From positions 1 to 32,942 of the forward strand of contig CALEAV010000020.1 of assembly GCA_937943575.1 (NCBI GenBank): a stretch of DNA of 32,942 nucleotides, given 5' to 3'. This document shows, in pieces, positions 1 through 19,988 of this stretch. Positions within the stretch are counted from its first letter, which is position 1, and every line of letters starts with the position of its first letter. The translations under genes were made by a program, and so were the position numbers. Origin of the DNA: an uncultured bacterium. GTDB lineage: Bacteria; Desulfobacterota; Desulfobaccia; Desulfobaccales; 0-14-0-80-60-11. Under the pieces are notes generated by a model. It saw nothing but the letters and a program-made list of their open reading frames with translations, ran no database searches and was not told the DNA's origin.

Positions 1-156
1 GACCAGGAGGCTGCGGCACAGCACCGCCAGGTCCGCCATGAGGTAGCGGCCGCAGTCGAACACCAGAAACGGCCAGAAGATGGCCCAGAACTGCCACCGG
101 TCCAGGTGCGCCAGAAATCGCAGGGCATCTTCCGCCAGGGACAAGAGGAATTCCAT
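1..156 (-). CDS. N-terminal fragment of a membrane protein, probably a glycosyltransferase
   Basis: The window holds only the first 52 codons; the gene runs off the left edge. The ATG at 156-154 has a GGGAG-like ribosome binding site four to eight bases upstream. The visible protein starts with a short amphipathic stretch, then a hydrophobic segment rich in Trp and Phe (around residues 22-35) and the motif FDCGRY. This resembles the N-terminus of polytopic family 2 glycosyltransferases that begin with a membrane segment, but no catalytic motif is in view, so the identification is weak. The neighbour upstream on the same strand is an SDR nucleotide-sugar enzyme, which fits a polysaccharide-synthesis role. 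A gap of 326 nt separates the two, so this gene may have its own promoter. Confidence 0.5.
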   Translation of the reverse strand, partial: MEFLLSLAEDALRFLAHLDRWQFWAIFWPFLVFDCGRYLMADLAVLCRSLLV

Positions 157-482
157 CTCCCGGTCCAAGGATCACGCTTTTGCGATTAAGTTCGAGAGAT
201 TTTCGAACAAACTTAAAGAAAATTTTTGGAAGGCGACGTTTTGAACCAAAAAGGGAGGTCCGGGGGGCGCTCACACGGGACAGAGTGGGCGGCCTTCCCT
301 TTAAAACCCTGAGCAGCCGGGCTGACGGGCTGACCATGCCGTCAGTGGCCAAACGGACCGGAGGAGGAAAAAAGCGGCCCTCGGAAGGACGGCTGCAAGG
401 CCCCTTCCCGCCCACCCTGGCGAGATTCCCCGCCTCCCCTCCTGCTTCCTGCCCCCTTGGCTGCCTGGCGGGCCGCGGGCCC
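157..482. other. Intergenic region, AT-rich on its left side, no gene seen
   Basis: This 326-nt gap lies between the end of the SDR gene and the start of the partial membrane protein. Bases 175-260 are strikingly AT-rich for this window and hold runs of A and T. They lie directly upstream of the minus-strand gene start at 156 and are the likely place for its promoter. I could not pick convincing -35 and -10 boxes. The right part (280-482) is GC-rich with no open frame that resembles a protein. Confidence 0.5.
190..208. promoter_or_regulatory. Dyad GTTCGA-N7-TCGAAC, possible operator
   Basis: A perfect 6-bp inverted repeat with a 7-nt spacer sits in the AT-rich tract, 34 to 52 bases upstream of the partial gene that starts at 156 on the minus strand. 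Position and symmetry fit a repressor or activator site. No regulator is identified, so this is a candidate only. Confidence 0.3.
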
Positions 483-1487
483 TCAGGCGGCGGCGGTGCG
501 TCTCCCCAGGCTGGCCACCGCGGCGGCGTCCTCCCTCAGCCAGTTCGCCACCTCCTGGACGATCTGTGCCAGGCGGATGCGAGGCGTAAAACCGAGGAGC
601 TCCCGGATCTTGGTGATATCCGGCACCCGGTGGTCCATATCCTCATACCCGGCCTCGTAGACCTGCTCATAGGGCAAAAAGACGATGGGGGAGGGGGAGC
701 GGGTGACCTCTGTCACCACCTGGGCCAGGTGGGCGATGCTCACCTCCTCGGTGCTGCCGATATTAAAGATGTGCCCTGTCGCCCGGGGTTCCCGGGTCAG
801 CCCGATGAGGGCCTCCACCACCTCCGCCACATGGATGAAGCAGCGGGTCTGCCGGCCGTTGCCGTAAACGGTGAGGGGTTCCCCCCTGAGGGCCTGGGCC
901 ACAAAGGTGGGCAGTACCATGCCGTAGCGGCCGGTCTGGCGGGGGCCCACGGTGTTGAAGAGGCGGGCGATGATGACGGGCAGGCCCTGCTCCCGGTGGT
1001 AGGCCAGGGCCAGGAATTCATCCGCCAGCTTGGAGCAGGCATAGCCCCAGCGGCTGAGATGGCTGGGTCCCAAAACCAGGTCGTCCTCCTCCGAGAACCT
1101 CTCCCGTCGGGATTTGCCATAGACTTCCGAGGTGGAGGCCACCAGGGTCAGGCGCCGGTAGCGGGCCGCCAGGGAGAGCACAATGTGGCTGCCCAGGATA
1201 TTGGTCTCCAGGGTCTCCACCGGATGATGCAGGATATGGCGGACCCCCACCGCCGCGGCCAGGTGGAAGATGGCGTCCGCCTGCCGGACCAGCTCCTCCA
1301 TCAGCTCGGGATGACGCACATCTCCGGCCACAAAGGAGAATTTCGGGTGATCGCTGAGCCCGGCGAGATTGGCATAGGAGCCGGTGCTCAGGTTGTCCAC
1401 CGCCAGCACCCGATGGCCCTCGCTCAGCAGCCGGGCGCACAGATGCGAGCCGATAAAGCCGGCTCCGCCGGTCACCAGATAGATCAT
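483..1487 (-). CDS. SDR-family nucleotide-sugar epimerase/dehydratase/decarboxylase
   Basis: This 334-aa extended short-chain dehydrogenase acts on nucleotide sugars in the cytoplasm. The N-terminus carries the NAD-binding motif TGGAGFIGSH. The active site is visible as STSEVYG followed by YxxxK (YACSK), and the substrate region has RLFNTVGPRQ and VYGNGRQTRCFIHV. The pattern is closest to UDP-glucose 4-epimerase and UDP-glucuronate decarboxylase relatives; which reaction it runs cannot be told by eye. The ATG at 1487 was preferred over the in-frame GTG at 1496 because AAGG lies about eight bases before it. It is the middle gene of a minus-strand group with the TackOD1 signalling protein upstream and a probable membrane glycosyltransferase downstream, which suggests that it supplies a sugar donor for a surface polysaccharide. 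Confidence 0.88.
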   Translation of the reverse strand: MIYLVTGGAGFIGSHLCARLLSEGHRVLAVDNLSTGSYANLAGLSDHPKFSFVAGDVRHPELMEELVRQADAIFHLAAAVGVRHILHHPVETLETNILGSHIVLSLAARYRRLTLVASTSEVYGKSRRERFSEEDDLVLGPSHLSRWGYACSKLADEFLALAYHREQGLPVIIARLFNTVGPRQTGRYGMVLPTFVAQALRGEPLTVYGNGRQTRCFIHVAEVVEALIGLTREPRATGHIFNIGSTEEVSIAHLAQVVTEVTRSPSPIVFLPYEQVYEAGYEDMDHRVPDITKIRELLGFTPRIRLAQIVQEVANWLREDAAAVASLGRRTAAA

Positions 1488-1539
1488 CGCCCTCACCTTG
1501 ACAGAAATCCCAGGACCGGCTCAGCCGCCGGTTACGAGG

Positions 1540-1575
1540 GGGAACGGTTCCCAAAAGAGCATCGGCAGAACTGCC
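1540..1575. promoter_or_regulatory. Two short dyads upstream of the SDR gene
   Basis: GGGAAC-G-GTTCCC at 1540-1552 is a perfect 6-bp dyad with a 1-nt centre. GGCAG-AA-CTGCC at 1564-1575 is a second perfect dyad. Both lie in the 135-nt gap between the TackOD1 gene and the SDR gene, 53 to 88 bases upstream of the SDR start. They may be operator sites or small hairpins in a leader. There is no direct evidence for either. Confidence 0.28.
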
Positions 1576-1622
1576 CTTCCCCTTGAGTTTCGGTTCTTTG
1601 CAGAAGATGCGTCTCAGGTTCC

Positions 1623-3128
1623 CTACAGCCCCTGGTCCGGGAGGGCGGAGGGCTCCATCCCCCTCACCCCGGTCAGGAGGGGCTCCCTCCCCGGGCCGGT
1701 CAGCAGGACGTGCTCCAAGGCTTCGGCCTCCGCAGAGTCGGGGAGGGGGATGATCTGGTAGTCAAAATCCAAGGGGATGCTCAGGACCTCCCGGCTGCGC
1801 TGGAGGAGGCGCTCCACCACGGTACGGGCCCGGGCTGACTCCGTCTCCGGCAGCAGCAGGAGAATCTCCCGCCGCGGCGAGACGGTGACCAGGTCCGTCT
1901 GCCGGGTGTGGCTGCCGATGATCTCCTGGAGCTCCTTGACCAGGAGCATCTTTCCCCCCGTCCCCAACTGGGTCTCCAGCTCCTCCAGATTGCGGAGGCT
2001 GAGCCGGATGAGGCTGGCCTGGCGGCCGTAGCGCTGAGTCCGCTTCACTTCCAGGTCCAGATAGGCCTGGAAAAAGGGGAAGGTATAGATGTTCAGAAAA
2101 TGGTAGAGCACCTCGTTGAGACTCAGACGGGTGTGGAGCCCCAACAGGGCGGCCTCGATGCCCTGCTGGGAGAGGGAGAAGCGCTGAATCGCCAGGGAGC
2201 GGCTGCGGCTGGGGGGGAAGACGGCCCCGCATTTGATGCACAGGCAGGAGAGTTCGGGCTCCGGGAAGGCCTCCCCGCAGGCCTCGCACAGCATCACCTC
2301 CCCGGGCTTGGCGTAGTCCACCCCGATGTGGCGCAGCTCCTGGCTGCACTTGGGGCAGACGTAGCGGTCCCGCCGGACGAAGGCGGTCTGGGGGGCCGTA
2401 TGCCCGCAGCTGTAATGCTGGATGGTGGGGGTGCGCCGCCAGCGGGGGCTCTGGCAGCTGGGGCACACCTGCCGGCAGGTGAGCCGAAAATCCTCACAGG
2501 TGGGGCATAAAGGGACGTAATCCACCACCTCGGCTTCCAGGAGGCCTTCCTGGGCCAGGCGGTTCATCTCCACCAGGGCCTGGCCGGCAGGCACCCGGAG
2601 AAGCGCATCCGCCCAGGCCAGCCGGTACCCGAAGGGGGAATTCTCCTCCCGCCCGGGGGTCACCCCGGAGAGGTCCCGGGAATGGAGGAAGCGCAACAGG
2701 GTAATCTCCCGGGCTGCTTTCTCATCCAGCGAGGGGGACAGCGGGGGGTAGCGGTCCAGACAGATCCTGACGGGGGCCAGGGCCTTCAGCGCCGTCCGGA
2801 AATCGTAGCCGGAGAAGGGCAGGGTGATGAGATGGTCGTAGTCCGGCACGGAGAGCCGGACCGGGCTCTTCGGCGCCACCAGGATGACCGGAGTGAGGCC
2901 CCAGTGGGGCGAGCGCCGCAGGGCCTCCAGCCCCCGCCGGGCGCTCTCCTCTTCCGCCGCCCCCAAAATGAAGAGGTCGATCGGGAAGGACCCCTCCGGC
3001 GGCACCCCCCCGGAGCTGCCCACCAGCTTCAGCTCGGCAATCCCCGTCAGCCCGGCCAGGACCTCCTGGTAGAGGTCGGCATTCTCCACGATGACATAGG
3101 CACCGAAAGAAATCTTCTGCGATTCCAT
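1623..3128 (-). CDS. TackOD1-domain signalling protein with degenerate GGDEF domain
   Basis: This 501-aa soluble protein has three recognisable parts. Residues 1-125 look like a response-regulator-type alpha/beta domain without a clear phosphoacceptor pattern. Residues 208-305 form a run of zinc ribbons: LCPTC, VCPSC, SCGH, VCPKC, LCEAC and LCIKC, with the linking motif LRHIGVDY. This is the pattern I know as TackOD1 (thaumarchaeal output domain 1). Residues 345-460 resemble a GGDEF domain, but the catalytic GGDEF position reads SPRRE (about 417-421), so it should not make cyclic di-GMP. The ATG at 3128 was chosen because AAGGAG precedes it at ideal spacing; an upstream in-frame ATG at 3173 lacks this. 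It is divergent from the exporter at 3295 and upstream of an SDR and a glycosyltransferase, so it may sense or relay a signal that controls polysaccharide synthesis. The role is inferred. Confidence 0.8.
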   Translation of the reverse strand: MESQKISFGAYVIVENADLYQEVLAGLTGIAELKLVGSSGGVPPEGSFPIDLFILGAAEEESARRGLEALRRSPHWGLTPVILVAPKSPVRLSVPDYDHLITLPFSGYDFRTALKALAPVRICLDRYPPLSPSLDEKAAREITLLRFLHSRDLSGVTPGREENSPFGYRLAWADALLRVPAGQALVEMNRLAQEGLLEAEVVDYVPLCPTCEDFRLTCRQVCPSCQSPRWRRTPTIQHYSCGHTAPQTAFVRRDRYVCPKCSQELRHIGVDYAKPGEVMLCEACGEAFPEPELSCLCIKCGAVFPPSRSRSLAIQRFSLSQQGIEAALLGLHTRLSLNEVLYHFLNIYTFPFFQAYLDLEVKRTQRYGRQASLIRLSLRNLEELETQLGTGGKMLLVKELQEIIGSHTRQTDLVTVSPRREILLLLPETESARARTVVERLLQRSREVLSIPLDFDYQIIPLPDSAEAEALEHVLLTGPGREPLLTGVRGMEPSALPDQGL

Positions 3129-3180
3129 CCCCCGACTCCTTGGGCCCTGAGGCCCGCTGCTTTGTCCTGCCATCGGCCGG

Positions 3181-3294: not shown

Positions 3295-4323
3295 ATGCCT
3301 CCCCAGGAAGCCGACATCCAGGTCCGGGCAGCACCATCGATTCGGCGGCGTCTTCCCCTGTTTGTCCTGCTGCTCCTTCTGGTGGGCGGCGTCCTGTGGT
3401 GGTGGCAGCGCCACCAGCCCGCGCCGGCGCCGGGCCTGCGCCTCAGCGGGCACATCGAGGCCACCGAAACCCATCTGGGCTTCAAGGTTCCTGGCATCAT
3501 TACGGCCATTCATTTTCAGGAAGGGGAGGAGGTCCGGGCCGGCCAGGTGGTGGCGGAGCTGGACGACCGGGATCTGAGGCAGGAGCTGGCGGCGGCGGCG
3601 GCCCGGCTGGCGGCGGCGCAGGCCAACCTCGCCCGGCTGCAGGCGGGCTACCGCCCCCAGGAGGTCCGGGAGGCCCAGGCCGCCGTGGCCCAGGCCCAGG
3701 CCGACCATGACGACAAGGAGCGCGAGTTCCGACGCTTCCAGGCCCTCTTTGAGCGCCGGGTGGTGGCCGCCCAGACCCGGGACCGGGCCGAGGCGGCCCT
3801 CCTCATGGCCCGGGAGGCCCTGAACCGGGCCAGGGAGCGGTATGATCTCCTGCGTGCCGGCTTCCGGCAGGAGGACATCGAGCAGGCCCGGGCGGAAGTG
3901 CGGCTGGCCGAGGCGCAGCGGGACCTGGCCCGCATCCGTCTCGGCTACGCCCGCATCACCGCGCCGGTCACCGGCATCGTGCTCTCCCGGCCGGCGGAGC
4001 CCGGCCAGGTGGCCCAGGTGGGGGCCACCATCCTCACCCTGGGGGACCTGGACAACCTCTGGTTCGAAGGCTGGCTGCCGGAAACCCAGCTGGGGCGGGT
4101 GCGCTACGGCCAGAAGGCCCAGGTGACCACGGATTCCCATCCGGGCAGGATCTACCCCGGCTGGATCTCCTACATCGCCAGCAAGGCCGAGTTCACCCCC
4201 AAGATGGTGGAAACCTTCAAGGAGCGGGTCACCCTGGTCTACCGCACCAAGATCCGGGTGGACAACCCCCACCACGACCTCAAGCCGGGCATGCCCGCCG
4301 AGGCCCTCATCCTCCCGGAGTAA
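3295..4323 (+). CDS. HlyD-family periplasmic adaptor of an ABC exporter (YbhG-like)
   Basis: This 342-aa membrane fusion protein links an inner-membrane ABC exporter to an outer-membrane channel. One transmembrane anchor lies near residues 20-42. It is followed by the first half of a biotinyl-lipoyl domain (HIEATETHLGFKVPG), a long Ala/Arg/Glu-rich coiled-coil hairpin (about residues 90-215), the second lipoyl half (ITAPVTGIVLSR) and a beta-barrel ending in LKPGMPAEALILPE. Order and length match the YbhG group. The start ATG has only a weak purine-rich site (AATAGGGGC). It is the first of four genes (adaptor, ATPase, two permeases) with the YbhGFSR arrangement. Substrate is unknown; relatives move drugs, cations or lipids. 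No TolC-type gene is in the window. Confidence 0.9.
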   Translation: MPPQEADIQVRAAPSIRRRLPLFVLLLLLVGGVLWWWQRHQPAPAPGLRLSGHIEATETHLGFKVPGIITAIHFQEGEEVRAGQVVAELDDRDLRQELAAAAARLAAAQANLARLQAGYRPQEVREAQAAVAQAQADHDDKEREFRRFQALFERRVVAAQTRDRAEAALLMAREALNRARERYDLLRAGFRQEDIEQARAEVRLAEAQRDLARIRLGYARITAPVTGIVLSRPAEPGQVAQVGATILTLGDLDNLWFEGWLPETQLGRVRYGQKAQVTTDSHPGRIYPGWISYIASKAEFTPKMVETFKERVTLVYRTKIRVDNPHHDLKPGMPAEALILPE

Positions 4324-4363
4324 GGGGCCGGCAGGGCTGGGGGGCACCCCGGGGGGAGCGGGC

Positions 4364-5341
4364 ATGGGGGCGCTGACCGGGCCTTTTGCGACAGCACAGA
4401 TGCAGCCCATCATCGAGGTTCAGGGTCTGACCAAGGACTTCGGCCGCTTCCGGGCGGTGGACGGGGTCAGTTTCACGGTCTTTCAGGGGGAGATCTTCGG
4501 CTTTTTGGGGCCCAACGGCGCCGGCAAATCCACCACCATCCGCATGCTTTTGGGGCTGCTGCGGCCCAGCGGCGGCTCCGGGCGGGTGGCCGGCTATGAC
4601 CTGGTCAGGGAGCAGGCCCGCATCAAGGCCAAGGTGGGCTACATGTCCCAGCGCTTCAGCCTGTATGAGGATCTCACCGCGGAGGAGAACCTGGAGTTTT
4701 TCGGCGGGGTCTACGGCCTCCCTGAGGGGCGTCTGCGGGCCCGCATCGCCGAGGTGCTGGAGCTGGTGGGGCTGACGGAGCGGCGCCGGGACCTGACCCG
4801 CACCCTGGCTTTGGGCCTCCGCCAGCGCCTGGCCCTGGCCTCCGCCATGCTCCACGAGCCGCCCCTCCTGTTCCTGGATGAGCCCACCAGCGGGGTGGAC
4901 CCCATCTCCCGGCGCACCTTCTGGGACCTGATCTATGGGCTGGCGGCCCGGGGGGTGACGGTCCTGGTCACCACCCATTACCTGGATGAGGCGGAGTTCT
5001 GCGACCGGCTCATTCTCATTTCCCAGGGCCGGCTCATCGCCCAGGGCACCCCCCGGGAGCTGAAGGGCCGGGTGACAGATTGCCTCCTGGCGGTCTATCC
5101 CGATCCTGAGCGCTTGTCGGAGGCCCTGGCCGCCGCCCGGGAGATCCCCCAGGCCACGGAGGTGGCGGTCTTCGGGGCCGGCCTGCACGTGGCCTTTCCC
5201 CCGGAGGTGCCGGGAGAGGCGCTTCTCTCCCAGGCGTTGACGGCCCGCGGGGTCACTATCCGGCAGCTCAGGCCCGTGGCCCCTACCCTGGAGGACGCCT
5301 TCATCGCCCTCACCCGCCGGGCCTCCTCCCCATCGGCATGA
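4364..5341 (+). CDS. ABC exporter ATP-binding protein (YbhF-like, single domain)
   Basis: This 325-aa ATPase would power the two ABC-2 permeases that follow. Walker A is GPNGAGKST (residues 49-57), the Q-loop region is YMSQRFSLYEDL, Walker B is LLFLDEPTSG (168-177), and the switch histidine lies in TTHYLDEAE. The signature motif reads LALGLRQRL instead of LSGGxxQR; this form recurs in the C-terminal ATPase half of YbhF-type proteins, so it is a family trait and probably not damage. Unlike E. coli YbhF, which has two ATPase halves, this protein has one, so it should act as a homodimer. The ATG at 4364 has a GGGGGGAG site; the alternative at 4400 has none. The stop overlaps the next start in an ATGA, which points to translational coupling. 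Confidence 0.92.
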   Translation: MGALTGPFATAQMQPIIEVQGLTKDFGRFRAVDGVSFTVFQGEIFGFLGPNGAGKSTTIRMLLGLLRPSGGSGRVAGYDLVREQARIKAKVGYMSQRFSLYEDLTAEENLEFFGGVYGLPEGRLRARIAEVLELVGLTERRRDLTRTLALGLRQRLALASAMLHEPPLLFLDEPTSGVDPISRRTFWDLIYGLAARGVTVLVTTHYLDEAEFCDRLILISQGRLIAQGTPRELKGRVTDCLLAVYPDPERLSEALAAAREIPQATEVAVFGAGLHVAFPPEVPGEALLSQALTARGVTIRQLRPVAPTLEDAFIALTRRASSPSA

Positions 5342-6471
5342 ATCTGAGGCGCACCTACGCGGTCTTCCGCAAGGAGCTCATCCATATCCAGCGGGACCCT
5401 TCCAGCCTGGTGCAGGCCATCCTCCTGCCGGTGGTGCTGCTTCTTCTGTATGGCTACGCCCTCACCTTCGACATCACCGAGGTGCCGGTGGCGGTCTGGG
5501 ACCGGGAGCAGAGCCGGGCCTCCCGGGATTTAATCAACCGCTTTGGGGCCTCCCGTTATTTCACCTTGAGCTACCAGGTCCAGAGCTCCGAGGAGATCGC
5601 CCGGCTGCTGGACCGGCGCCGCATCTGGCTGGCCCTGGTTTTGCCCCACGATTTCTCCCGCTGTCTGGAGACCGGGGAGCCGGCGCCGGTGCAGGCCATC
5701 GTGGACGGCACCGACGCCAACACCGCCAACATCATCCTGGGCTATGTGCAGGGGGTGCTGGCCGAGTACAGCCGGGAGGTGGCGAAAAGCCGCCTGAAGG
5801 CCCGGGGGCTGGAGCGGCCCCTGGTGGAGCTCCGAAGCGAGGTCAGGGTGTGGTTCAATGAGGACCTGGAGAGCAAAAACTACATCGTCCCCGGCCTGAT
5901 TGTGGTCATCATGACCATGGTGGGCTCGCTTCTCACCGCCCTCACCATCGTCCGGGAACGGGAGCGGGGCAGCATGGAGGGCCTCATGGCCACCCCCCTG
6001 AAGAAATGGGAGCTCATCTTCGGCAAACTGGGCCCCTATTTCCTCATCGGCATGGTGGACATGTTCATCGCCCTGGGCATGGGAAAGTTCCTCTTTGACG
6101 TCCCCTTGCGGGGCAGCGTTTCCCTGCTCATTGTCCTTTCCGCCCTTTTTCTGGTGGTCATGCTGGGCCAGGGGCTGCTCATTTCGGTCCTGTCCATCAA
6201 CCAGCTCCAGGCCTACCAGATGGCCACCCTGTTCACCTTTCTGCCGGCGTTTCTGCTCTCCGGCTTTGTCTTTGCCATCAAACAGATGCCCCTGGCCCTG
6301 CAGCTGGTGAGCTATCTGGTGCCCTCCCGCTATTTCGTCACCATCTCCAAGGGCATCTACCTCAAGGGGGTCGGGCTCAGCCTCCTTATGGGGGAAGTGC
6401 TGGTGCTGCTGGCCTTTGCCGCCTTCTTTCTGGTGGCGGCCCAGCGCCGGCTGGTGAAGAAGATCCCCTGA
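5338..6471 (+). CDS. ABC-2 type permease (YbhS-like)
   Basis: This 377-aa membrane protein has one N-terminal transmembrane helix (about residues 24-44), a large extracytoplasmic domain (about 45-170), and a C-terminal block of five hydrophobic segments. Between these blocks lies the ABC-2 coupling region TIVRERERGSMEGLMATPL, typical of the ABC2 membrane family 3 (YhhJ/YbhS/YbhR). The start overlaps the end of the ATPase gene by four bases, so the two are translated together. With the following paralogous permease it probably forms a heterodimeric channel. The last residues are basic (RRLVKKIP), as expected for a cytoplasmic C-terminus. Confidence 0.9.
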   Translation: MNLRRTYAVFRKELIHIQRDPSSLVQAILLPVVLLLLYGYALTFDITEVPVAVWDREQSRASRDLINRFGASRYFTLSYQVQSSEEIARLLDRRRIWLALVLPHDFSRCLETGEPAPVQAIVDGTDANTANIILGYVQGVLAEYSREVAKSRLKARGLERPLVELRSEVRVWFNEDLESKNYIVPGLIVVIMTMVGSLLTALTIVRERERGSMEGLMATPLKKWELIFGKLGPYFLIGMVDMFIALGMGKFLFDVPLRGSVSLLIVLSALFLVVMLGQGLLISVLSINQLQAYQMATLFTFLPAFLLSGFVFAIKQMPLALQLVSYLVPSRYFVTISKGIYLKGVGLSLLMGEVLVLLAFAAFFLVAAQRRLVKKIP

Positions 6472-6512
6472 GGAAGGCCCTGGCCCCGGCCCCCGCAAAA
6501 GGAGCGCCCGCG

Positions 6513-7643
6513 ATGCTCAGGCGGCTACGCTACATGGTGAAAAAGGAGCTCATCCAGGCGTTGCGGGACCCGCGTCTCAGGCTCTTCGTCATCCTGCCGC
6601 CCCTCATCCAGCTCATCATCTACGGCTATGCCATCAACTTTGACCTGAAGCACATCGACACCGCAGTGCTGGACCAGGACCTGAGCCGGGCCAGCCGCCA
6701 GCTCGTCAGCCGCTTTGCCGCCACCGAATATTTTGCGGTGGGCCATGTTCTCCGGCAGCCGGGGGAGATCCCCCCCCTCCTGGACCGAAACCGGGCGACC
6801 CTGGTGCTGCGGTTGGCCCCGGATTTCGGCCGGGAGCTGGCAGGCGGCCGGCCGGCCCGGCTGCAGCTCATCCTGGACGGCACGGACTCCAACAGCGCCC
6901 TGGTGGTGGCCCGCTACGCCGCCCAGGTGCTGGCGGACTACCAGGAGGAGCTGACCACGGCCCGGCTGGCCGCCCTGGGGCTGCCCCCGGAGCTGGCCCG
7001 GCCGGTGCGCCTGGAGCCCCGGGCCTGGTTTAATGAGAACCTCACCAGCCGCTGGTCCTTTGTCCCCGGGGTGATTGCCATGGTGGTCATGCTGGTGAGC
7101 CTGATGCTCACCGCCCTGGCGGTGGTGCGGGAAAAGGAGCTGGGCACCATGGAGCAGATCCTGGTGACCCCTCTTAGGCCGGTGGAATTCCTCCTGGGGA
7201 AGACCATCCCCTTTGTCCTCATTGCCCTTCTGGATGTGGTGCTGGTGACTTTGGTGGGGGTCTTCTGGTTCGAGGTGCCCCTGCGGGGCAGCCTGGCGGT
7301 CTTATTTTTGGGGACCCTTTTTTTCCTGTTCAATTCCGTGGGCCTGGGGCTGCTCATCTCCACCGTGTCCGCCACCCAGCAGCAGGCCATGATGGCGGGC
7401 ACCTTCTTTTTCACTCCGGCCATCCTCCTTTCGGGCCTGGTCTTTCCGTTGCGCAACATGCCGGAGGCGGTGCAGTATCTCACCTACCTCAACCCCCTGC
7501 GGTATTTCATCATCATCATCCAGGACGTCTTCCTGAAGGGGGTGGGGCTGGAGGTCTTGTGGCCCCAGATGCTGGGGTTGGGGCTGCTGGGCCTGTCCCT
7601 GCTGACGTTCAGCGTCCTGCGTTCCCAGCGGCATCTGGGGTGA
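6513..7643 (+). CDS. ABC-2 type permease (YbhR-like)
   Basis: This 376-aa protein has the same plan as the preceding permease: an N-terminal helix, an extracytoplasmic domain, then the coupling stretch VVREKELGTMEQILVTPL and five C-terminal helices. The two share matching motifs (DPRLRLF/DPSSLVQ, DGTDSNSA/DGTDANTA, WFNENL/WFNEDL) and are clear paralogues that arose by duplication. AAAAGGAG precedes the ATG by about eight bases. The 41-nt gap to the upstream gene contains no terminator, so all four genes from 3295 are likely one operon. It ends at 7643, followed by a 263-nt gap before the cytochrome gene. Confidence 0.9.
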   Translation: MLRRLRYMVKKELIQALRDPRLRLFVILPPLIQLIIYGYAINFDLKHIDTAVLDQDLSRASRQLVSRFAATEYFAVGHVLRQPGEIPPLLDRNRATLVLRLAPDFGRELAGGRPARLQLILDGTDSNSALVVARYAAQVLADYQEELTTARLAALGLPPELARPVRLEPRAWFNENLTSRWSFVPGVIAMVVMLVSLMLTALAVVREKELGTMEQILVTPLRPVEFLLGKTIPFVLIALLDVVLVTLVGVFWFEVPLRGSLAVLFLGTLFFLFNSVGLGLLISTVSATQQQAMMAGTFFFTPAILLSGLVFPLRNMPEAVQYLTYLNPLRYFIIIIQDVFLKGVGLEVLWPQMLGLGLLGLSLLTFSVLRSQRHLG

Positions 7644-7906: not shown

Positions 7907-9262
7907 ATGCCTGACAGAACACCCCTCTTTCCGCCCGCCCTGACCCTGGGGGCCCTGTCCGCCTTCCTGGCGGCCCTGGTGTGGATCGGATTCTCCCACC
8001 CGGCCGAAGCCGGCAAGGGGGGCAAGCCCAAACCCGGGGGCTCCGGCCACCACGGCGTCACCACCTATGAGGGCAGCGCCACCTGCAAGAAGTGCCACAG
8101 CAAAAAGGTGCAGGAGGTCCTCAACGCGGAACACTACCAGTGGGCCGGAAAACTCGGGAAAATCAACGACTTCTGCACTTACCCCGACATCAACTGGCTG
8201 CAGCAGATCACGGTGAAGGCCCCCGATGGCACCAGCAAAACCACCGTCACCGGCTGCGCCTCCTGCCACGTGAGCTACGGGGAGTTCACCCCCCCGCCCC
8301 TGGGCGGCCCCATGCCGGTGCAGGAGGACCGGATTGACTGCCTCGTGTGCCACTCCGATGCCTACAAGCGGGTGGGCACCCTGGTCAACGGCAAGCCCGC
8401 CCTCATCATGGACCCCAGCCTCAACCCGGCCACGGTGCTGGCGGCCATCAAAAAGACGCCCTCGGCCCAGGCCTGCCTGAACTGCCATGCCCGGGCCGGC
8501 GGGGGCAATGCCGTCAAGCAGGGGGACCTGGAGCTGGCCATGGCCAATCCGGCCTTTGACCTGGATGTGCATCTGGCCGGCACTGCGGTGGGCGGCGCCG
8601 GCTTGACCTGTGTCTCCTGCCACACCGTGAGCGCCCACAAAGTCGCCGGCAAGGGCAACGACCTCCGGGTGGCGGAAGGGAGCGGCATGAAGACCTGCAC
8701 CACCTGCCATGGCACTGCGCCCCACGGCTCCGGCAACCTCAACAAGCACTACAGCCGGGACAAGCAGCCCCTGGACTGCACCGTCTGCCACATCCCCAGC
8801 TACGCCCGGGGCCTGCCCACCGAAACCCGCCGGGACTTCAGCCTGGCGGAATTCGATGCCGCCGCGGGCCGCTGGGAGGCCCACCGCACTCTGGGGGAGG
8901 ACCTGCTGCCCGTGTGGCGCACCTGGAACGGCACCTCCTTCTTCTACCACCTGGGCACGGCCATCAGCGGCGACACCCTGACCCTGGCGGGCCCCAACGC
9001 CGGCACCCGCCTCTATCCCTTCAAGGTGCACACCGCCCGCATGGCGGTGGACCAGGCCAGCCGGCTCATCCCCCTGAAGTCCGCCCCCCTGTGGAGCACC
9101 GGCGATCTGAACCTGGCCCGGGTCCAGGGCGAGCTGGAGGTCTTCGGGGACAACCTGGGGAGCGTGAGGTTTGTGGAGACCACCCGTTACTTCGGCCTTT
9201 ACCACCAGGTGGCTCCCAAGGACCAGGCCAAGCAGGTCTGCGCCCGGTGCCATAATAAATAA
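7907..9262 (+). CDS. otr: Octaheme cytochrome c, tetrathionate-reductase (OTR) family
   Basis: This 451-aa protein has a Sec signal peptide (hydrophobic core about residues 11-30, likely cut after AEA at 35). It carries eight CXXCH heme sites, at residues 60, 117, 145, 190, 235, 264, 291 and 445. Spacing and flanking motifs match the Shewanella octaheme tetrathionate reductase as I remember it: INDFC, CASCHVSYG, DCLVCH, GGGNAVKQGDL, DVHL, CTVCHIPSYARG, YPFKVHT, and a C-terminus of VAPKDQ then CHNK. That enzyme reduces tetrathionate, nitrite and hydroxylamine at a lysine-ligated heme. K154, shortly after the third heme site, is a candidate ligand, unproven. The ATG at 7907 has AAGGAGGAG upstream; an in-frame start at 7769 would put 46 unlikely residues before the signal. 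The hydrogenase genes follow after 87 nt, so it is probably the electron partner of the hydrogenase. Confidence 0.9.
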   Translation: MPDRTPLFPPALTLGALSAFLAALVWIGFSHPAEAGKGGKPKPGGSGHHGVTTYEGSATCKKCHSKKVQEVLNAEHYQWAGKLGKINDFCTYPDINWLQQITVKAPDGTSKTTVTGCASCHVSYGEFTPPPLGGPMPVQEDRIDCLVCHSDAYKRVGTLVNGKPALIMDPSLNPATVLAAIKKTPSAQACLNCHARAGGGNAVKQGDLELAMANPAFDLDVHLAGTAVGGAGLTCVSCHTVSAHKVAGKGNDLRVAEGSGMKTCTTCHGTAPHGSGNLNKHYSRDKQPLDCTVCHIPSYARGLPTETRRDFSLAEFDAAAGRWEAHRTLGEDLLPVWRTWNGTSFFYHLGTAISGDTLTLAGPNAGTRLYPFKVHTARMAVDQASRLIPLKSAPLWSTGDLNLARVQGELEVFGDNLGSVRFVETTRYFGLYHQVAPKDQAKQVCARCHNK

Positions 9263-9349
9263 CCACCGCCGGATAATGTCCCCCCGCCTCGGGGCCTGGC
9301 GCCGGGGCCGGGTTTTGAGGGCTTTATCCACCCCCAAGGAGGAATCCAC

Positions 9350-10246
9350 ATGCCCATCAGCCGCCGTGATTTTCTCAAATACTGCAGCGCCGCGGCTGCG
9401 GCCCTGGGGCTGGGAGGCACGGATCTGCTCAGGCTGGAGCAGGTCCTGGCCGACCCCACCGCACCCACGGTGCTCTGGCTGCACGGCAGCAGCTGCTCCG
9501 GCTGCTCCGTGTCCTTCCTCAATTACATCGCCGGAAGCGATCCCACTGACCCCGGGGACATCCTGCTCAACCACGTCAACCTGGCCTACCATCCGGTGCT
9601 CATGGCCCCGGCGGGTCTGCCGGCCTATCAGGCGGCCGAGGCGGCCTACAGCCTGGGCAACTATGTCCTGGTGGTGGAAGGGGCGGTGGCCACCCAGTTC
9701 AGCGGCCGCTGCTGCTGGCCCTGGGCCGACGGCACCGGGACGGAGGAGACCTTTCTGTCGGCCGTGACCCGGTATGCGGCCAAGGCCGCCCAGGTGGTGT
9801 GCGCCGGCAGCTGCTCAGCCTTCGGCGGCATCCCCGCGGCCGGCAGCAACCCCACCCTGGCCCGAAGCGTCCGGGCGGTGACGGGAAAGCCCACCATCAA
9901 TATCCCGGGCTGCCCCTGCCATCCCAACTGGCTGGTCTGGGCGCTGGTGCAGATCCTCCTGGGGAAGGGCATCAGCACCGACAGCTCCGGCCGGCCCACC
10001 GCCCTGTTCAGCAGCAAGGTGCACAGCAACTGCCCCCGGCGGGGGAAACCCAAGGACACCGTCCTGGGCGGCAGCGGCTGCCTGAGGGATCTGGGCTGCC
10101 GGGGGCCGGATACCCAGGCCAACTGCCCGGCGCAGAAATGGAACAACGCCCAGAGCTGGTGCATCGAGGCCAGCGCGCCCTGCTATGGCTGCACCGAGCC
10201 CGGGTTTCCCGGCAGCAGCCCGTTTTACAAGTTCCCTGCCGGATAA
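9350..10246 (+). CDS. [NiFe] hydrogenase small subunit, Tat-exported, soluble
   Basis: This 298-aa subunit carries three iron-sulfur clusters from the nickel site to the outside. The N-terminus has a Tat signal (SRRDFLK). Proximal cluster ligands are C49, C52, C155 and C188. The distal cluster has H225, C228, C244 and C250. The medial site has C259, C271, C278 and C281. C271 (in SWCIEA) occupies the position that is proline in classical enzymes with a [3Fe-4S] medial cluster, so three [4Fe-4S] clusters are predicted. The proximal motif SSCSGC lacks the extra cysteines of oxygen-tolerant enzymes. The protein stops soon after GCTEPGF with no C-terminal membrane helix, so the dimer should be periplasmic and soluble. 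AAGGAGGA lies before the ATG. It belongs to group 1 (or close) by signal and motifs; the exact subgroup needs a tree. Confidence 0.95.
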   Translation: MPISRRDFLKYCSAAAAALGLGGTDLLRLEQVLADPTAPTVLWLHGSSCSGCSVSFLNYIAGSDPTDPGDILLNHVNLAYHPVLMAPAGLPAYQAAEAAYSLGNYVLVVEGAVATQFSGRCCWPWADGTGTEETFLSAVTRYAAKAAQVVCAGSCSAFGGIPAAGSNPTLARSVRAVTGKPTINIPGCPCHPNWLVWALVQILLGKGISTDSSGRPTALFSSKVHSNCPRRGKPKDTVLGGSGCLRDLGCRGPDTQANCPAQKWNNAQSWCIEASAPCYGCTEPGFPGSSPFYKFPAG

Positions 10247-10283
10247 CCTTGCACCCTGGCAGATCAGCCAAGGAGGATGACCC

Positions 10284-11771
10284 ATGGGCAAAAGGAAACC
10301 CCAACCGCCGCCGCCCCCGACCACTACCGTCCGGATTATCGACCCGGTGACCCGGATTGAAGGCCACCTGCGCATCAGCGTCACCCTGACCCCGGACGCC
10401 ACCGGCAGACTGGTGGTGAGCGACGCCCAGTCCACCGGCACGCTGTTCCGGGGCTTTGAAAATATTCTCCTCGGGCGGCATCCCTGGGACGCCCAGCATT
10501 TCACCCAGCGCATCTGCGGCGTCTGCCCCGTATCCCACGGCATGGCCGCCGTCCAGGCCATCGATGCCGCTTCCCAGGCGACGGTGCCGGCCAACGCCCG
10601 CATCATGCGCAACCTGGTCCTGGGGGCCAACCTCATCGACTCCCACATCCTGCATTTTTACCACCTGACCCTGCCGGATTACGTCACCCCGCCGGCCATG
10701 AACATGCCGCCCTGGAACACCGACTGGGTGCATGACGAAAATTTCACCGACAGCGAAGCCAACACCTTGGCGGCCCATTATCTGGAGGCCCTGAAAGCAA
10801 GGCGGCTGGCTCATGAGATGGGGGCCATCTTCGGGGGCAAGCTCCCCCACCCGCCGGCATATGTGCCGGGGGGATTCACCGCCACCCCCACGGCGGAGAA
10901 GATCAGCCGCTTCGAGGGGTATCTCAACCAGGTCATTGATTTCCTGAACAATTATTACCTGCCGGATGTTCAGCTCCTGGTGAGCCGCTATCCGGCCTAT
11001 GACGCCATCGGCCGGGGCTGTGGGAATCTTCTGGCCTTCGGCTGCTTCGAGGAGGGGAGCGGCAACCTGTTTCTCCGTCGGGGTCGCCTCCCCTGGGGCA
11101 GCGCCGCGGTGCAGCCCGTGGAGGTGGGAAAGATCGCCGAGTTTGTCAAGTATTCCTGGTATGCCGAGGCCACCGGCGGCCTCAATCCGGCCGCAGGGGT
11201 CACCACCCCGGTGGATCCGGAGAGCAAGGCCACGGCCTACTCCTGGCTGAAGGCGCCCCGCTATGACGGCGTCCCTTATGAGGCGGGGCCGCTGGCCCGC
11301 ATGGTGGTGAGCCATCTCTATCCTGCCGGCAAGGTCTCGGTGAATGACCGCCACCTGGCCCGGGCCTTTGAGGCCCTGGAGGTGGCGGAGCAGATGCGCC
11401 TGTGGCTCAACCAGCTCAGGAGCGGCCTGGGGCAGCCGACGTATATCTCCACGGCGGTGCCCCGCTCGGCCGTGGGGGTGGGCCTCACCGAAGCCCCCCG
11501 GGGGGCCCTGGGTCACTGGCTGGAAATCAAAGAGGGCAAGATCTCCCGTTACCAGGTGATCACCCCCACCTGCTGGAACGCTTCGCCCCGGGATGCCAAC
11601 GGCCGGAGGGGGCCCCTGGAGGAGGCCCTCATCGGCACGCCGGTGGCCGATCCGGAGCGGCCGGTGGAGGTGCTCCGGGTCGTCCATTCCTTTGACCCCT
11701 GCCTGGCCTGCGCGGTGCATGTGCTCCGGCCCGACGCCGGCCGGAAGATCTTTCCCGTGGGCCATGGCTGA
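10284..11771 (+). CDS. [NiFe] hydrogenase large (catalytic) subunit
   Basis: This 495-aa subunit splits or forms H2 at the NiFe(CN)2CO centre. The two nickel-binding motifs are present: RICGVCPVSH (C78, C81) near the N-terminus and DPCLACAVH (C473, C476, H479) near the C-terminus. VTRIEGH at 22-28 is also diagnostic. All four ligands are cysteine codons (TGC or TGT), so this is not a [NiFeSe] enzyme. The last 16 residues after H479 form the tail that a maturation protease removes; that protease is the next gene. The proline-rich start (residues 6-12) is unusual but short. The protein has no signal of its own and should ride through Tat with the small subunit. AAGGAGGA precedes the ATG. The 37-nt gap after the small subunit and the 8-nt overlap with the protease gene indicate one operon. 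Confidence 0.96.
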   Translation: MGKRKPQPPPPPTTTVRIIDPVTRIEGHLRISVTLTPDATGRLVVSDAQSTGTLFRGFENILLGRHPWDAQHFTQRICGVCPVSHGMAAVQAIDAASQATVPANARIMRNLVLGANLIDSHILHFYHLTLPDYVTPPAMNMPPWNTDWVHDENFTDSEANTLAAHYLEALKARRLAHEMGAIFGGKLPHPPAYVPGGFTATPTAEKISRFEGYLNQVIDFLNNYYLPDVQLLVSRYPAYDAIGRGCGNLLAFGCFEEGSGNLFLRRGRLPWGSAAVQPVEVGKIAEFVKYSWYAEATGGLNPAAGVTTPVDPESKATAYSWLKAPRYDGVPYEAGPLARMVVSHLYPAGKVSVNDRHLARAFEALEVAEQMRLWLNQLRSGLGQPTYISTAVPRSAVGVGLTEAPRGALGHWLEIKEGKISRYQVITPTCWNASPRDANGRRGPLEEALIGTPVADPERPVEVLRVVHSFDPCLACAVHVLRPDAGRKIFPVGHG

Positions 11772-12273
11772 GTGGCCGGGACCGAAGAGGCTGCGTCCCC
11801 CCCGGGTACTGGTCGCCGGCCTGGGGAACCTGCTCCTGCGGGATGACGGGGTGGGGGTGCAGGCGGTGCGGCTGCTCCAGGAAGAACCCCTTCCCGGTGT
11901 GCTCCTGGCGGAGGTGGGGACCCAGGTGCTGGGGGCCCTGCACCTCCTGGAGTGGGCCGACCGGGTGCTGGCCCTGGATGCCCTCATGGCCGGCGGGCCT
12001 CCCGGCACCATTTATGCCTGCCGGGAAAGCGATGTGGCCCAGGAGGAGGTCCAGGCCTCCCTGCATGAGTTGGGCCTGCGGGCGGCGCTGCAGTTTCTGC
12101 CTCAGGAACGCCGCCCCGAGGTCTTCATCCTGGGGATGGAGCCCGCATGTTTGGAGCCGGGCCTGGAGCTCTCCCCGCCGGTGGCCGCGGCCTTGCCCCG
12201 CTTCCTTCAGCTGGCCCGGGACAGCGCCGCCCGCCTGCGCCATCGGGGGCGGCTTGTGGGGGATCACGACTGA
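11764..12273 (+). CDS. Hydrogenase maturation endopeptidase (HyaD/HybD family)
   Basis: This 169-aa cytoplasmic protease cuts the C-terminal tail from the large subunit after nickel has been inserted. The family start motif GLGNLLLRDDGVG is present; D28 stands where HybD has its first nickel-binding acid (Glu16). D72 in LALDAL and H101 in SLHELG match the other two nickel-sensing residues. The ATG at 11764 lies inside the last codons of the large-subunit gene (8-nt overlap), which supports both the start choice and coupled translation. The C-terminal stretch (residues 150-169) is basic and less conserved. It is the last gene of the operon, followed by a hairpin at 12291. Confidence 0.9.
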   Translation: MAEWPGPKRLRPPRVLVAGLGNLLLRDDGVGVQAVRLLQEEPLPGVLLAEVGTQVLGALHLLEWADRVLALDALMAGGPPGTIYACRESDVAQEEVQASLHELGLRAALQFLPQERRPEVFILGMEPACLEPGLELSPPVAAALPRFLQLARDSAARLRHRGRLVGDHD

Positions 12274-12290
12274 GTCCGGTGAGAAGGGGC

Positions 12291-12308
12291 CGGGGGCCGT
12301 GGCCCCCG
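12291..12308. terminator. Strong GC hairpin between convergent genes
   Basis: CGGGGGCC and GGCCCCCG form a perfect 8-bp stem around GT (in practice a looser loop). It lies 17 bases after the maturation protease stop and in the convergent gap with hypE. No T-tract follows on either strand, so it may be a bidirectional or factor-assisted terminator, or an mRNA-stabilising hairpin. Confidence 0.4.
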
Positions 12309-12391
12309 ATGCTTCTCCCGGAGATCGGAGAGCTGGGGGGAGGGCGGACGAAAAACTGTTTTCCGGCTCTCCCCCCGACACCTGCCAGGGT

Positions 12392-13390
12392 TCAGCAGAT
12401 GCGGGGCAGGAGCTCCCCGGCAGGGGGCTCCAGGAGGCGGGAGGTGCCCAGCCCGGTGCGCAGCACCACCCGGCCGGGCGGGCCCTCCAGGACCCGGCCG
12501 ATACGGGCGGCCCGCTCGCCGTACGGGGACCGGCGCATGATTTCCAGGGCCGCCTCCGCCTCCGCCTCCGGCAGCACCACCAGCATCTTCCCTTCATTGG
12601 CCACCTGCAGGGGCTCCAGCCCCAAAGCCTCACAGGCGGCGGCCACCGCCGGGCTGATGGGGATGCGGTCCTCCTCCACTTCGATGGCCACCTGAGACTG
12701 GCGGGCCAGTTCGGTCAACGCCGCGGCCACGCCCCCCCGGGTGGGGTCCCGCAGGGCATGGATGGCAAGTCCGGCCGACAGCAGCCCCAGCACCATGCCG
12801 GTCAGGGGGGCGGCGTCGCTAGTAAGCTCCACCCCTTCCAGCAGTCCCTCCCTTGCCAGCATCACGGTGGCGCCGTGATCCCCCACGGTGCCGGAGAGAA
12901 GGACGGCATCCCCGGGTCTGAGAGCGCTTCCGGAAATCCCGGGCCTGAGGATCTGCCCCACTCCGGCGGTGGTGATGAAGACCTGATCCGCGGCCCCCCG
13001 GGGCACCACCTTGGTGTCCCCGGTGACGATGCTCACCCCGCACTCCCGGGCGGTGGCCGCCATGGAGGCGGCGATGCGGCTTAAGGTCTCCACCGGCAGC
13101 CCCTCCTCCAGGATGAAGGAGGCGGCGAGGGCCAGCGGCCGGGCCCCGGCGGTGAGAAGGTCGTTCACCGTCCCCGCCACCGCCAGCCGGCCGATGTCGC
13201 CCCCCGGGAAAAAGAGGGGGGAGACCACGAAGGAGTCGGTGGTGAAGGCCAGCGGGCCGGCCGCCAGATGGAGGACGGCGCTGTCATCCGCCACAAAGTC
13301 CGCCGGGCCGTAGGCGCTGAGAAACACCCGCCGGATGAGCTCCCCCATCTCCCGGCCGCCGGCCCCGTGACTGAGCAGAATCACATCCAT
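12392..13390 (-). CDS. hypE: Hydrogenase maturation protein HypE
   Basis: This 332-aa protein dehydrates the carbamoyl group on its own C-terminal cysteine to make the cyanide ligands of the NiFe site, working with HypF and passing CN to HypC-HypD. The motifs are clear: SHGAGGREMGELI at the start, DDSAVL, GDIGRLAVAGTVNDL, and GDTKVV. The protein ends PRIC, so the essential terminal Cys (C332) is present. It lies on the opposite strand and converges on the hydrogenase operon. The partner genes hypA, B, C, D and F are not in the window and must lie elsewhere if the hydrogenase matures. A separate hypE is less usual than the common hypFCDE order. It is divergent from bioA. Confidence 0.96.
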   Translation of the reverse strand: MDVILLSHGAGGREMGELIRRVFLSAYGPADFVADDSAVLHLAAGPLAFTTDSFVVSPLFFPGGDIGRLAVAGTVNDLLTAGARPLALAASFILEEGLPVETLSRIAASMAATARECGVSIVTGDTKVVPRGAADQVFITTAGVGQILRPGISGSALRPGDAVLLSGTVGDHGATVMLAREGLLEGVELTSDAAPLTGMVLGLLSAGLAIHALRDPTRGGVAAALTELARQSQVAIEVEEDRIPISPAVAAACEALGLEPLQVANEGKMLVVLPEAEAEAALEIMRRSPYGERAARIGRVLEGPPGRVVLRTGLGTSRLLEPPAGELLPRIC

Positions 13391-18441: not shown

Positions 18442-19988
18442 GGAACTCCATTTTCTTTCTGGATTTTCTCAACCAGAACAATATGTTCTGCTAAAAATTT
18501 ATAGGTAAAACGGGGATTGCATTGCAGCCGGAACTCAAACCAGGTGTACTCCTTGTCGTCCAAAACCAAAAATTTGTCGTGTCGTTCGAGAAAATCGGAC
18601 CAGGGGACAATATTCAGGTGGGGGAAGTGGCGTCTGACCCCGGACATATTGTGGTAATCGTCCACTGACCCCAGACTGTTGCCCCGGCTGACGGCCGCCT
18701 CCCAGTCCAGGAGAAAATAGTAACGCTCCGGGGTGGGGGAGTGATACACCCGCTCCAGGAACTCGGTGGCGGCCGGAACCACCACCGGCAGGGAGGGGGC
18801 ATCGGGCGGTCCCACCTCCTGAGGGGGGGGCGGCACCGGCCAGATGACGGCATAGAGCACGGGGGCTGCCAGTTGTCCTGCCAGGAGGAGGGCCGCAAGC
18901 CGCAGCCGGAAGTCCCCCCGGCCCCACCGCAGGGACACCTGCCAAAATCCGGGGAACCACATGTGGGCCACGCTGCTTAACACCACCGCCCACCCCAGGA
19001 TGCCGGGGAGAAAATACCGCTCCGAAAACACCGACACCATCAGGCGGGACACCACCCAGGCCGTCGCCGGCGGGAGACAGATGAGGAGGAGGGCAGCTAT
19101 ATGCAGGTCGTCCCGAACCCGGACCTCCGTCTCACCGGCCGGGGCCGGCTCCGGCGGGGCGTCCCCCGACGCCGCCTTCATCCCCCAAGCCGCCCACCAC
19201 CAGAATACAAGCAGCAGCGCCAAGGGCAGGGTGTGGAGGAAGGCAATCAGGAGGTCACGGGGCACCGGCACCGGGATCCAGGAATGGGGGTTGCCGGTCT
19301 GGCGATGTCGCTGAAAGACCTCGAGCCAGGGGAGGAAACTCAGCCACCCCAGGAGCACCGCCCCATAAAGGCGGGGGTGAAAGACCCGTCGCCGCCAATC
19401 CGCAATCAAGGTGGCCAAAAGAAAGATGACGCTGTAAAGTGGGCCAAAGTAATGGACCAAAACCAACCCGGCATGCACCAGCGCCTGACCGGCGGCCAGG
19501 CCCCATGATGCCTTTCCCGGCCGGAGCGCCCGCCGGACATAGATCCACAGGGCCAGGCTGGCCAGCAGCAGAAACAAACCGTAGCATCGGGCCTCCCGGA
19601 GTCGGGCCACCAGCGCCAGGGGGAGGCAGAAAGCCGCCACTGTCCCCAGGGCGGTGGGGCCGCTGGGGTAAGCCTGCCGGATAGTCCGCCAGACGATGAC
19701 AAAGGCCAGCAGTATCCCCAGACTGGACAGGAGCCTAAGACTGAGTTCAGAGCTCCCCCAGAGCCGTGCCCAGATCCAGGCCGCCAGATAGAACAGCGGT
19801 GGGGAGTTGTCAGCCTGGTCGGCCAGGGCCGCCAACATCCGGACGGGGCTGGGAAGACTCACCAGCAGGTAGGTGAGGACCTCATCACCCCAGAAATACA
19901 TCCTATGGTGCAGGATGAGAAAGGCGGCCCCCAGGGAGGCCAGCCCAAGAACCATGACCCCCCATTCCGTCTCGCCCCTTCTGATCAT
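18438..19988 (-). CDS. Membrane glycosyltransferase, GT39/ArnT-like
   Basis: This 516-aa protein has many transmembrane helices and the family's first-loop acidic motif in MYFWGDEVLTYLL (D35, E36), placed right after helix 1. Such enzymes move a sugar from a polyprenyl-phosphate donor to a lipid, glycan or protein at the periplasmic face. The C-terminal 120 residues form a soluble periplasmic domain with the pattern ERYYFLLDWEAA. The ATG at 19988 was chosen over the in-frame start at 20051 because it overlaps the deacetylase stop as ATGA and has GAGG upstream. It also overlaps the next gene by four bases. Family membership is good; acceptor and sugar are unknown. Confidence 0.82.
   Translation of the reverse strand: MIRRGETEWGVMVLGLASLGAAFLILHHRMYFWGDEVLTYLLVSLPSPVRMLAALADQADNSPPLFYLAAWIWARLWGSSELSLRLLSSLGILLAFVIVWRTIRQAYPSGPTALGTVAAFCLPLALVARLREARCYGLFLLLASLALWIYVRRALRPGKASWGLAAGQALVHAGLVLVHYFGPLYSVIFLLATLIADWRRRVFHPRLYGAVLLGWLSFLPWLEVFQRHRQTGNPHSWIPVPVPRDLLIAFLHTLPLALLLVFWWWAAWGMKAASGDAPPEPAPAGETEVRVRDDLHIAALLLICLPPATAWVVSRLMVSVFSERYFLPGILGWAVVLSSVAHMWFPGFWQVSLRWGRGDFRLRLAALLLAGQLAAPVLYAVIWPVPPPPQEVGPPDAPSLPVVVPAATEFLERVYHSPTPERYYFLLDWEAAVSRGNSLGSVDDYHNMSGVRRHFPHLNIVPWSDFLERHDKFLVLDDKEYTWFEFRLQCNPRFTYKFLAEHIVLVEKIQKENGVP

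Follow-up and report, generated by a model that had tools for sequence, protein, structure and literature searches.

A TackOD1 regulator with a catalytically dead GGDEF domain and a retained I-site, encoded in a widely conserved operon predicted to secrete exopolysaccharide

The stretch analyzed here, termed the window, is an entire contig of 32,942 nucleotides (CALEAV010000020.1; contig C20 of genome G000) from an uncultured bacterium of the Desulfobacterota, and its left end carries the gene of a regulator containing the TackOD1 domain. Three genes are located there, all on the minus strand. The regulator gene (3128..1623) is the first to be transcribed and encodes 501 residues from the ATG at 3128, while an alternative upstream ATG at 3173 would yield a protein of 516 residues. 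The product comprises a receiver, a TackOD1 block and a GGDEF domain, of which the receiver and GGDEF parts are degenerate. It is followed by the gene of a 334-residue nucleotide-sugar epimerase/dehydratase of the short-chain dehydrogenase/reductase (SDR) family (1487..483) and by the first 52 codons of a family 2 glycosyltransferase (GT2) gene (156..1), which is incomplete and runs off the contig. This arrangement, with the TackOD1 gene upstream of and on the same strand as the other two, is as described in the initial annotation of the window, which was made from the sequence alone.

The window shares its first 141 bases, without a mismatch, with the terminus of another contig of the same genome (C1), and beyond this overlap contig C1 carries the glycosyltransferase gene, followed by those of a 703-residue TolC-like protein with an attached hydrolase domain (TolC-GH) and a 327-residue HlyD-like protein. 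The closest named relative (79% identity) is a metagenome-assembled genome labelled Syntrophobacterales, referred to below as the sister genome, where genes on one strand encode, in order, the regulator, the SDR protein, a 434-residue glycosyltransferase and proteins of 698 and 327 residues. Judged from the overlap and the sister genome, rather than from a read across the join, the operon extends past the window edge into contig C1.

In terms of domain content, the Pfam search recovered TackOD1 (PF18551) in the regulator at an E-value of 8.8e-45 (153 bits, where the curated cut-off is 32), in agreement with the initial annotation. The TackOD1 zinc-ribbon block spans residues 137-318 (2175..2720, minus strand) and contains 11 cysteines, none of which is conserved in fewer than 80 of 86 relatives. 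These cysteines, together with the RHIGVDY motif, form the most conserved part of the regulator, which would be compatible with a docking surface, one of the two roles (output or docking) that the initial annotation had suggested for the zinc ribbons. The AlphaFold2 model of the protein (mean pLDDT 89.7, pTM 0.80) placed a CheY-like receiver fold at residues 5-123 (2760..3116, minus strand), with 2id7 as the match (Z 13.5, 117 residues aligned, root-mean-square deviation (rmsd) 2.8); a receiver-like N-terminus had been anticipated. The GGDEF domain is barely over the Pfam cut-off by sequence (PF00990, E 4e-05, 23.9 bits against 23.8). Its fold is clear in the model, at about residues 342-480 (1689..2105, minus strand), with 3ign matching residues 342-478 (Z 14.5, 135 aligned, rmsd 2.7), and the two best structure matches of this part are GGDEF domains with bound cyclic di-GMP (c-di-GMP). 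In a Foldseek search of the whole model, PleD was the best match by E-value; the whole-chain TM-score was low (0.2-0.3) because the domain arrangement differs.

By its sequence, the GGDEF domain is catalytically dead. As the initial annotation had recognized, the sequence SPRRE (1866..1880, minus strand) replaces the GG[DE]EF motif, which was absent from all of the 101 proteins inspected (86 aligned relatives and 15 further proteins from Pseudomonadota). Moreover, Asp was not among the six commonest residues of the 86 proteins at column 377, placed as a metal site. An active diguanylate cyclase was rejected on the basis of the motif in the window protein and in its relatives.

Conversely, the residues expected to bind c-di-GMP are present. 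The motif R409-Q-T-D412 (1893..1904, minus strand) was identified by alignment to PleD, and R440 (1809..1811, minus strand) supplies the third residue of the triad, as the counterpart of R390 of PleD and R402 of PelD. In the alignment span to 2wb4, counted by hand, R409, D412 and R440 map to PleD positions 359, 362 and 390, which we take to be the primary I-site of that protein. By sequence and fold, the regulator thus combines the features of a PelD-type I-site receptor, namely a degenerate GGDEF fold, RxxD and a third Arg. The corresponding residues of PelD are Arg367, Asp370 and Arg402 in Pseudomonas aeruginosa and Arg363, Asp366 and Arg395 in Bacillus cereus, and in the latter their alanine mutants showed undetectable binding and formed no biofilm, according to the portion of the study consulted (PMC7112168). 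R409 and R440 were invariant among the first 10 proteins aligned, and both vary in the wide set; the variation of R409 within the first 86 proteins is due to a split between phyla, and R440 also varies in the further Pseudomonadota. R366 was considered as the equivalent of the secondary-site R313 of PleD and dropped, as the PleD alignment places R313 at R363, a residue kept in 75 of 86 proteins.

The partner genes were analyzed mainly in relatives. The GT2 fragment of the window shares 85% identity with the first 52 residues of the full-length sister-genome glycosyltransferase, which contains PF00535 (3.7e-37), and this family was over its cut-off in all six synthases scanned. QxxRW occurs in 79 of 80 of the glycosyltransferases, and D107, D158, D160 and D250 in 80 of 80. 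On this sequence evidence, the left gene, called a probable glycosyltransferase at the outset, is the start of a processive family 2 enzyme. The best NCBIfam model was PgaC_IcaA in five of five synthases, which nonetheless fell far below the cut-off of the PgaC equivalog TIGR03937 (147.7-195.2 bits against 422.3). PilZ was not found on the six synthases scanned (E up to 0.01 or up to 0.001).

Among the outer-membrane proteins, the OEP family was over its cut-off in five of seven. Their C-terminal domain carries the motif HLDIEP, in which D is kept in 69 of 72 sequences and E in 71 of 72; the D is replaced by E in loci L081 and L086, and L122 has a gap. The hydrolase alignment (A4) contained 50 sequences, namely that of the sister genome and 49 of 63 prepared, and the structure alignment (A3) omitted loci L102, L114, L128, L135 and L142 together with those of the phylum set described below. 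Glycoside hydrolase family 18 (PF00704) was matched at E ≤ 0.1 by 17 of the 50 hydrolase domains (best 6.2e-08), and the sister-genome domain was unmatched. The best PDB match by sequence was a putative glycosidase of Cellulomonas. The model of the domain (pLDDT 95) has as its best folds Cwp19 (Z 19.1) and the C-terminal domain of PgaB (glycoside hydrolase family 153; Z 17.8, 237 aligned, rmsd 3.6), with many other TIM-barrel hydrolases within 1-2 Z. In the adaptors, HlyD_3 was over its cut-off in six of seven, and the best NCBIfam matches of the HlyD protein were secretion or efflux adaptors. The SDR protein fell below every equivalog cut-off shown.

The distribution of the operon was assessed by a wide scan of one genome per species with a profile of six regulator proteins, in which 272 relatives were found and 80 taken. 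Together with the loci of the window's phylum, and after removal of duplicates (L063, L064, L074 and L102, equal to L053, L054, L061 and L057) and of L056, whose regulator is not intact, these gave 86 regulator loci. The other three operon genes were sought by profiles on stop-to-stop frames. All four genes occur together on one strand in 74 of the 86 loci, in the order outer-membrane protein, HlyD, regulator, glycosyltransferase in 60 and regulator, glycosyltransferase, outer-membrane protein, HlyD in 14. Rheinheimera maricola MA-13 (L118) is among the bacteria with all four genes. The regulator gene adjoins that of the GT2 in 80 loci, and six of these lack the full set: five have one of the outer-membrane and HlyD genes, and L073, near a contig end, has neither. 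In the six loci without a glycosyltransferase gene, three are at contig ends (the window, L054 and L128), and three are solo regulators. In the loci from the wide scan alone, the glycosyltransferase was present in 74 of 76.

Since the wide scan began from proteins that were mostly operon-borne, a separate census was made with the Pfam TackOD1 model in 398 genomes of the Pseudomonadota (the phylum of Thiodiazotropha). TackOD1 was over the cut-off in 15 of these genomes; one (G413) was omitted as already counted (L079), and the other 14 provided 15 further loci. The glycosyltransferase and HlyD genes adjoin the regulator gene in all 15, and the TolC-GH gene does so in six. The core of the system is therefore composed of regulator, glycosyltransferase and HlyD, with the outer-membrane gene frequent but not universal. 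The three-gene form was also seen in two Vibrionaceae loci.

The unit confirmed here is thus a widely conserved operon, larger than first described. The initial annotation had proposed that a dead GGDEF domain next to a glycosyltransferase serves as a receptor or scaffold for exopolysaccharide and had looked to both the glycosyltransferase and the SDR protein as recurrent partners. The former adjacency, in 80 of 86 and 15 of 15 loci, lends support to that proposal. In contrast, the SDR gene was rejected as a recurrent partner, since it occurs in 2 of 102 loci, those of the window genome and the sister genome; from this distribution it is peculiar to the window's genus and incidental to the operon. 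As a whole, the earlier interpretation is partly supported, and three points go beyond it: the wide conservation of the operon, the retention of the predicted ligand site despite loss of the catalytic motif, and the incidental nature of the SDR.

Within the window's phylum (395 genomes), TackOD1 was detected in 22 genomes at E ≤ 0.001 and over the cut-off in 10, and the outer-membrane hydrolase domain in nine. TackOD1 over its cut-off and this domain co-occur in seven genomes, against 0.23 expected (p 1.5e-11, uncorrected for kinship). The genomes with such a TackOD1 match and without the hydrolase domain are G005, G141 and G193; the locus of G005 is at a contig end, and the rest of its genome yielded no match to the domain either. 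In two genomes with a hydrolase match and no TackOD1 (G151 and G197), the other three genes were absent from the fetched 8.7 kb and 3 kb, respectively.

The conservation of the I-site varied among the phyla. The full R/D/R triad is present in 32 of 34 proteins from outside the Bacteroidota, the remaining two, from Vibrionaceae, having R/D/K, and RxxD is kept in all 34. Counted as non-Bacteroidota in these figures are 16 loci without an assigned phylum, namely 10 from the window-phylum set and six placed by title (four KSB1, one gamma symbiont and one unclassified bacterium). In the further Pseudomonadota loci, RxxD occurs in 14 of 15. GGDEF domains at E ≤ 1e-8 were found in all 14 non-Bacteroidota genomes and in none of 26 Bacteroidota genomes, in a test of 40 genomes of our own selection.

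In our reading, which we consider probable, the regulator is a cytosolic c-di-GMP receptor, comparable to PelD and BcsE, that belongs to an operon for synthase-dependent secretion of exopolysaccharide. The parts of the system, their operon and its conservation, the loss of the catalytic motif, the retention of the I-site and the folds are each supported by sequence or by model. From this conservation, and by analogy with PelD and BcsE, we infer a mechanism in which ligand binding, docking, activation, the polymer and the direction of export are all predicted. c-di-GMP would bind the retained I-site (R409, D412 and R440) of the dead GGDEF domain, and the bound regulator would dock on the GT2 synthase and activate it, in the manner of PelD in the Pel system. 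The synthase, which is related to PgaC, would polymerize a probably hexosamine-type polymer via its own membrane part, while the HlyD and TolC-like proteins would form a conduit across the envelope and the GH18/PgaB-like hydrolase domain attached to the latter may trim or release the chains. The chances are about even for the broader proposal of a distinct and widespread exopolysaccharide machine, with a PgaC-like synthase, a HlyD/TolC conduit and a channel-borne hydrolase, whose TackOD1 receptor reads c-di-GMP in most phyla, whereas in the Bacteroidota it has been rewired and responds to a different signal or to no signal at all.

Several observations weigh against the receptor reading. The R/D/R triad occurs in none of the 52 Bacteroidota proteins (that of Prolixibacter bellariivorans, L089, also lacks RxxD), yet the protein is retained, and RxxD alone is kept in 20 of the 52, although the tested Bacteroidota genomes showed no GGDEF domain; the regulator would therefore also have a use that is independent of c-di-GMP. 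In a tree from which the GGDEF portion was excluded, the Bacteroidota pattern needs only two changes, so that the contrast with the remaining phyla is, on these sequences, close to a single split. The column of R440 in the 15 further Pseudomonadota loci contains eight R, five K, one E and one G, the last two belonging to two regulator copies of one genome. RxxD is also found in all 20 of the canonical GGDEF domains of kin genomes (25 loci, 20 with the canonical motif), which were picked by similarity, so that the comparison does not discriminate; the motif would thus have been kept in the regulator rather than newly made. Three solo proteins that keep the I-site, in L060 (9335-10861) and L062 (6468-7910), of one genus, and in L111 (9443-10897), have no operon genes nearby. 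The TolC-GH gene does not adjoin the regulator gene in eight of the 15 further Pseudomonadota loci, and a ninth lies at the end of a 4.3-kb contig. As for the hydrolase, TIM barrels like its own are numerous, the Foldseek list including non-hydrolases such as tryptophan synthase alpha, and the invariance of HLDIEP in alignment A4 is partly selected, because L081, L086 and L122 were already missing from the 63 sequences prepared.

The Bacteroidota also provide an argument for an alternative that we consider unlikely, in which the regulator serves the synthase complex as a structural scaffold or in its assembly, with the GGDEF-like domain as a surface for protein binding; c-di-GMP would then be nowhere the signal, and RxxD would be an ancestral leftover. 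In these bacteria the operon still encodes the entire protein in the absence of the triad, with no GGDEF domain found in 26 genomes; the presence of RxxD in canonical domains and the location of the conservation peak in TackOD1 rather than in the I-site agree with such a role. Nevertheless, outside the Bacteroidota RxxD persists (34/34 and 14/15) among proteins that mostly share 20-30% identity with the window protein and that have lost the catalytic motif throughout, which argues against this role. A parallel to the Bacteroidota contrast has been published: in streptococci that are not known to use c-di-GMP, PelD is without its degenerate GGDEF domain, as stated in the part of the source consulted (PMC7112168). 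The Bacteroidota contrast offers a natural test of the role of a dead GGDEF domain with and without its ligand.

The HlyD and TolC families widely serve efflux and type 1 secretion, and the product of the operon might accordingly be something other than a secreted polysaccharide, for example a glycolipid or a short oligosaccharide handled in an efflux-like manner. The NCBIfam matches of the HlyD protein and the HlyD/ABC exporter encoded divergently next door in the window's genus would suit this explanation. The processive-synthase aspartates and QxxRW of the GT2, its best family (PgaC_IcaA) and the resemblance of the hydrolase domain to enzymes acting on polysaccharides point instead to a polymer, and we regard such other products as quite improbable. 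It is very improbable that the protein works like a conventional response regulator, with a phosphorylated receiver and the TackOD1 block as its output. The CheY fold is compatible with this possibility, Asp occupies column 56 in 42 of 86 relatives, and archaeal proteins that combine a receiver with TackOD1 are mentioned in the part of the literature consulted (PMC5847659). However, with the phospho-acceptor and Lys sites placed by eye, the window protein has Gly at residue 56, and at columns 102-104, the expected receiver Lys site, the four commonest residues do not include Lys.

Two regulator-glycosyltransferase-HlyD loci (L191 and L193) were observed in a single genome, G707. One of their regulators has HxxD and no third Arg, and the other has RxxD with Glu.

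In a second genome of the window's genus (G001), only regulator residues 9-104 were matched, beside pieces of the TolC-GH gene (the adjoining remnants lie at L056 9450-10227). The 20-kb stretch around them gave no match to the SDR or GT2 genes, although it retains open frames for the neighboring HlyD protein, ABC ATPase and one permease. The remnant would fit loss of the operon by one deletion. In the window, the corresponding HlyD adaptor, ABC ATPase and ABC-2 permease genes (3295-7643) are divergent from the TackOD1 gene; HlyD and ABC genes are likewise found next to the sister-genome operon and next to the remnant in G001. Further along, 7907-13390 encodes a multihaem cytochrome and the small and large subunits of a NiFe hydrogenase and, on the strand opposite the hydrogenase genes, an AIRS-domain protein that is presumably HypE-like. 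A PMT_2-type mannosyltransferase gene is located in 15994-19955, together with a minus-strand gene for an 815-residue protein with no Pfam match at E ≤ 1e-5.

When TackOD1 was described in 2018, its function was said to remain obscure (PMC5847659, consulted in part). The archaeal proteins of arCOG06883 share TackOD1 with the regulator, sometimes together with a receiver (PMC5847659), and double zinc-ribbon proteins occur in thaumarchaeal type IV pilus loci (PMC4858521); unlike the present system, neither a GGDEF-like domain nor a polysaccharide operon is described in the relevant parts of these two sources. Among the titles and abstracts listed in our literature searches, none describes the combination reported here. 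The present results suggest a likely function for this little-understood domain and tie its bacterial form to a single type of operon in several phyla, whereby its role becomes testable.

PelD resembles the regulator in its degenerate GGDEF domain with a retained I-site triad and in its operon with a polysaccharide synthase. It differs in being a GAF-GGDEF protein, whereas no GAF domain was matched by Pfam in the window regulator at E up to 1, the CheY fold and TackOD1 preceding the GGDEF domain; the partners also differ, being here a GT2, a HlyD adaptor and the TolC-GH protein. BcsE is likewise a degenerate receiver-GGDEF tandem and binds c-di-GMP by RxxD (PMC7439463), and both of its folds are present in the regulator, with TackOD1 in between. 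In contrast, the material consulted on BcsE mentions no zinc-ribbon block; BcsE has an extra N-terminal domain and BcsQ and BcsF as partners, and cellulose synthase itself senses c-di-GMP via PilZ. The PgaABCD system for poly-N-acetylglucosamine is approached by the GT2, nearest to PgaC_IcaA, and by the hydrolase, with the C-terminal domain of PgaB among its best folds. In the present system, however, the GT2 is far under the PgaC cut-off, the hydrolase domain shares one chain with a TolC-like protein, and a HlyD adaptor and a different candidate receptor are found.

The proposed Xcs export of cellulose in Thermosynechococcus is similar in that a GT2 synthase, a HlyD-like adaptor and a TolC-like channel would form one conduit. 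As presented in the sections consulted of a review of cyanobacterial cellulose, XcsA carries PilZ, the genes of T. vulcanus do not lie together, and the XcsAB-TolC model is termed experimentally unvalidated, its applicability to operon-organized clusters being left open (PMC12430437). Conversely, the system described here is encoded in one operon, with no PilZ found on the scanned synthases and a distinct protein as the candidate receptor; 74 such operons contain all four genes, some of them in named strains.

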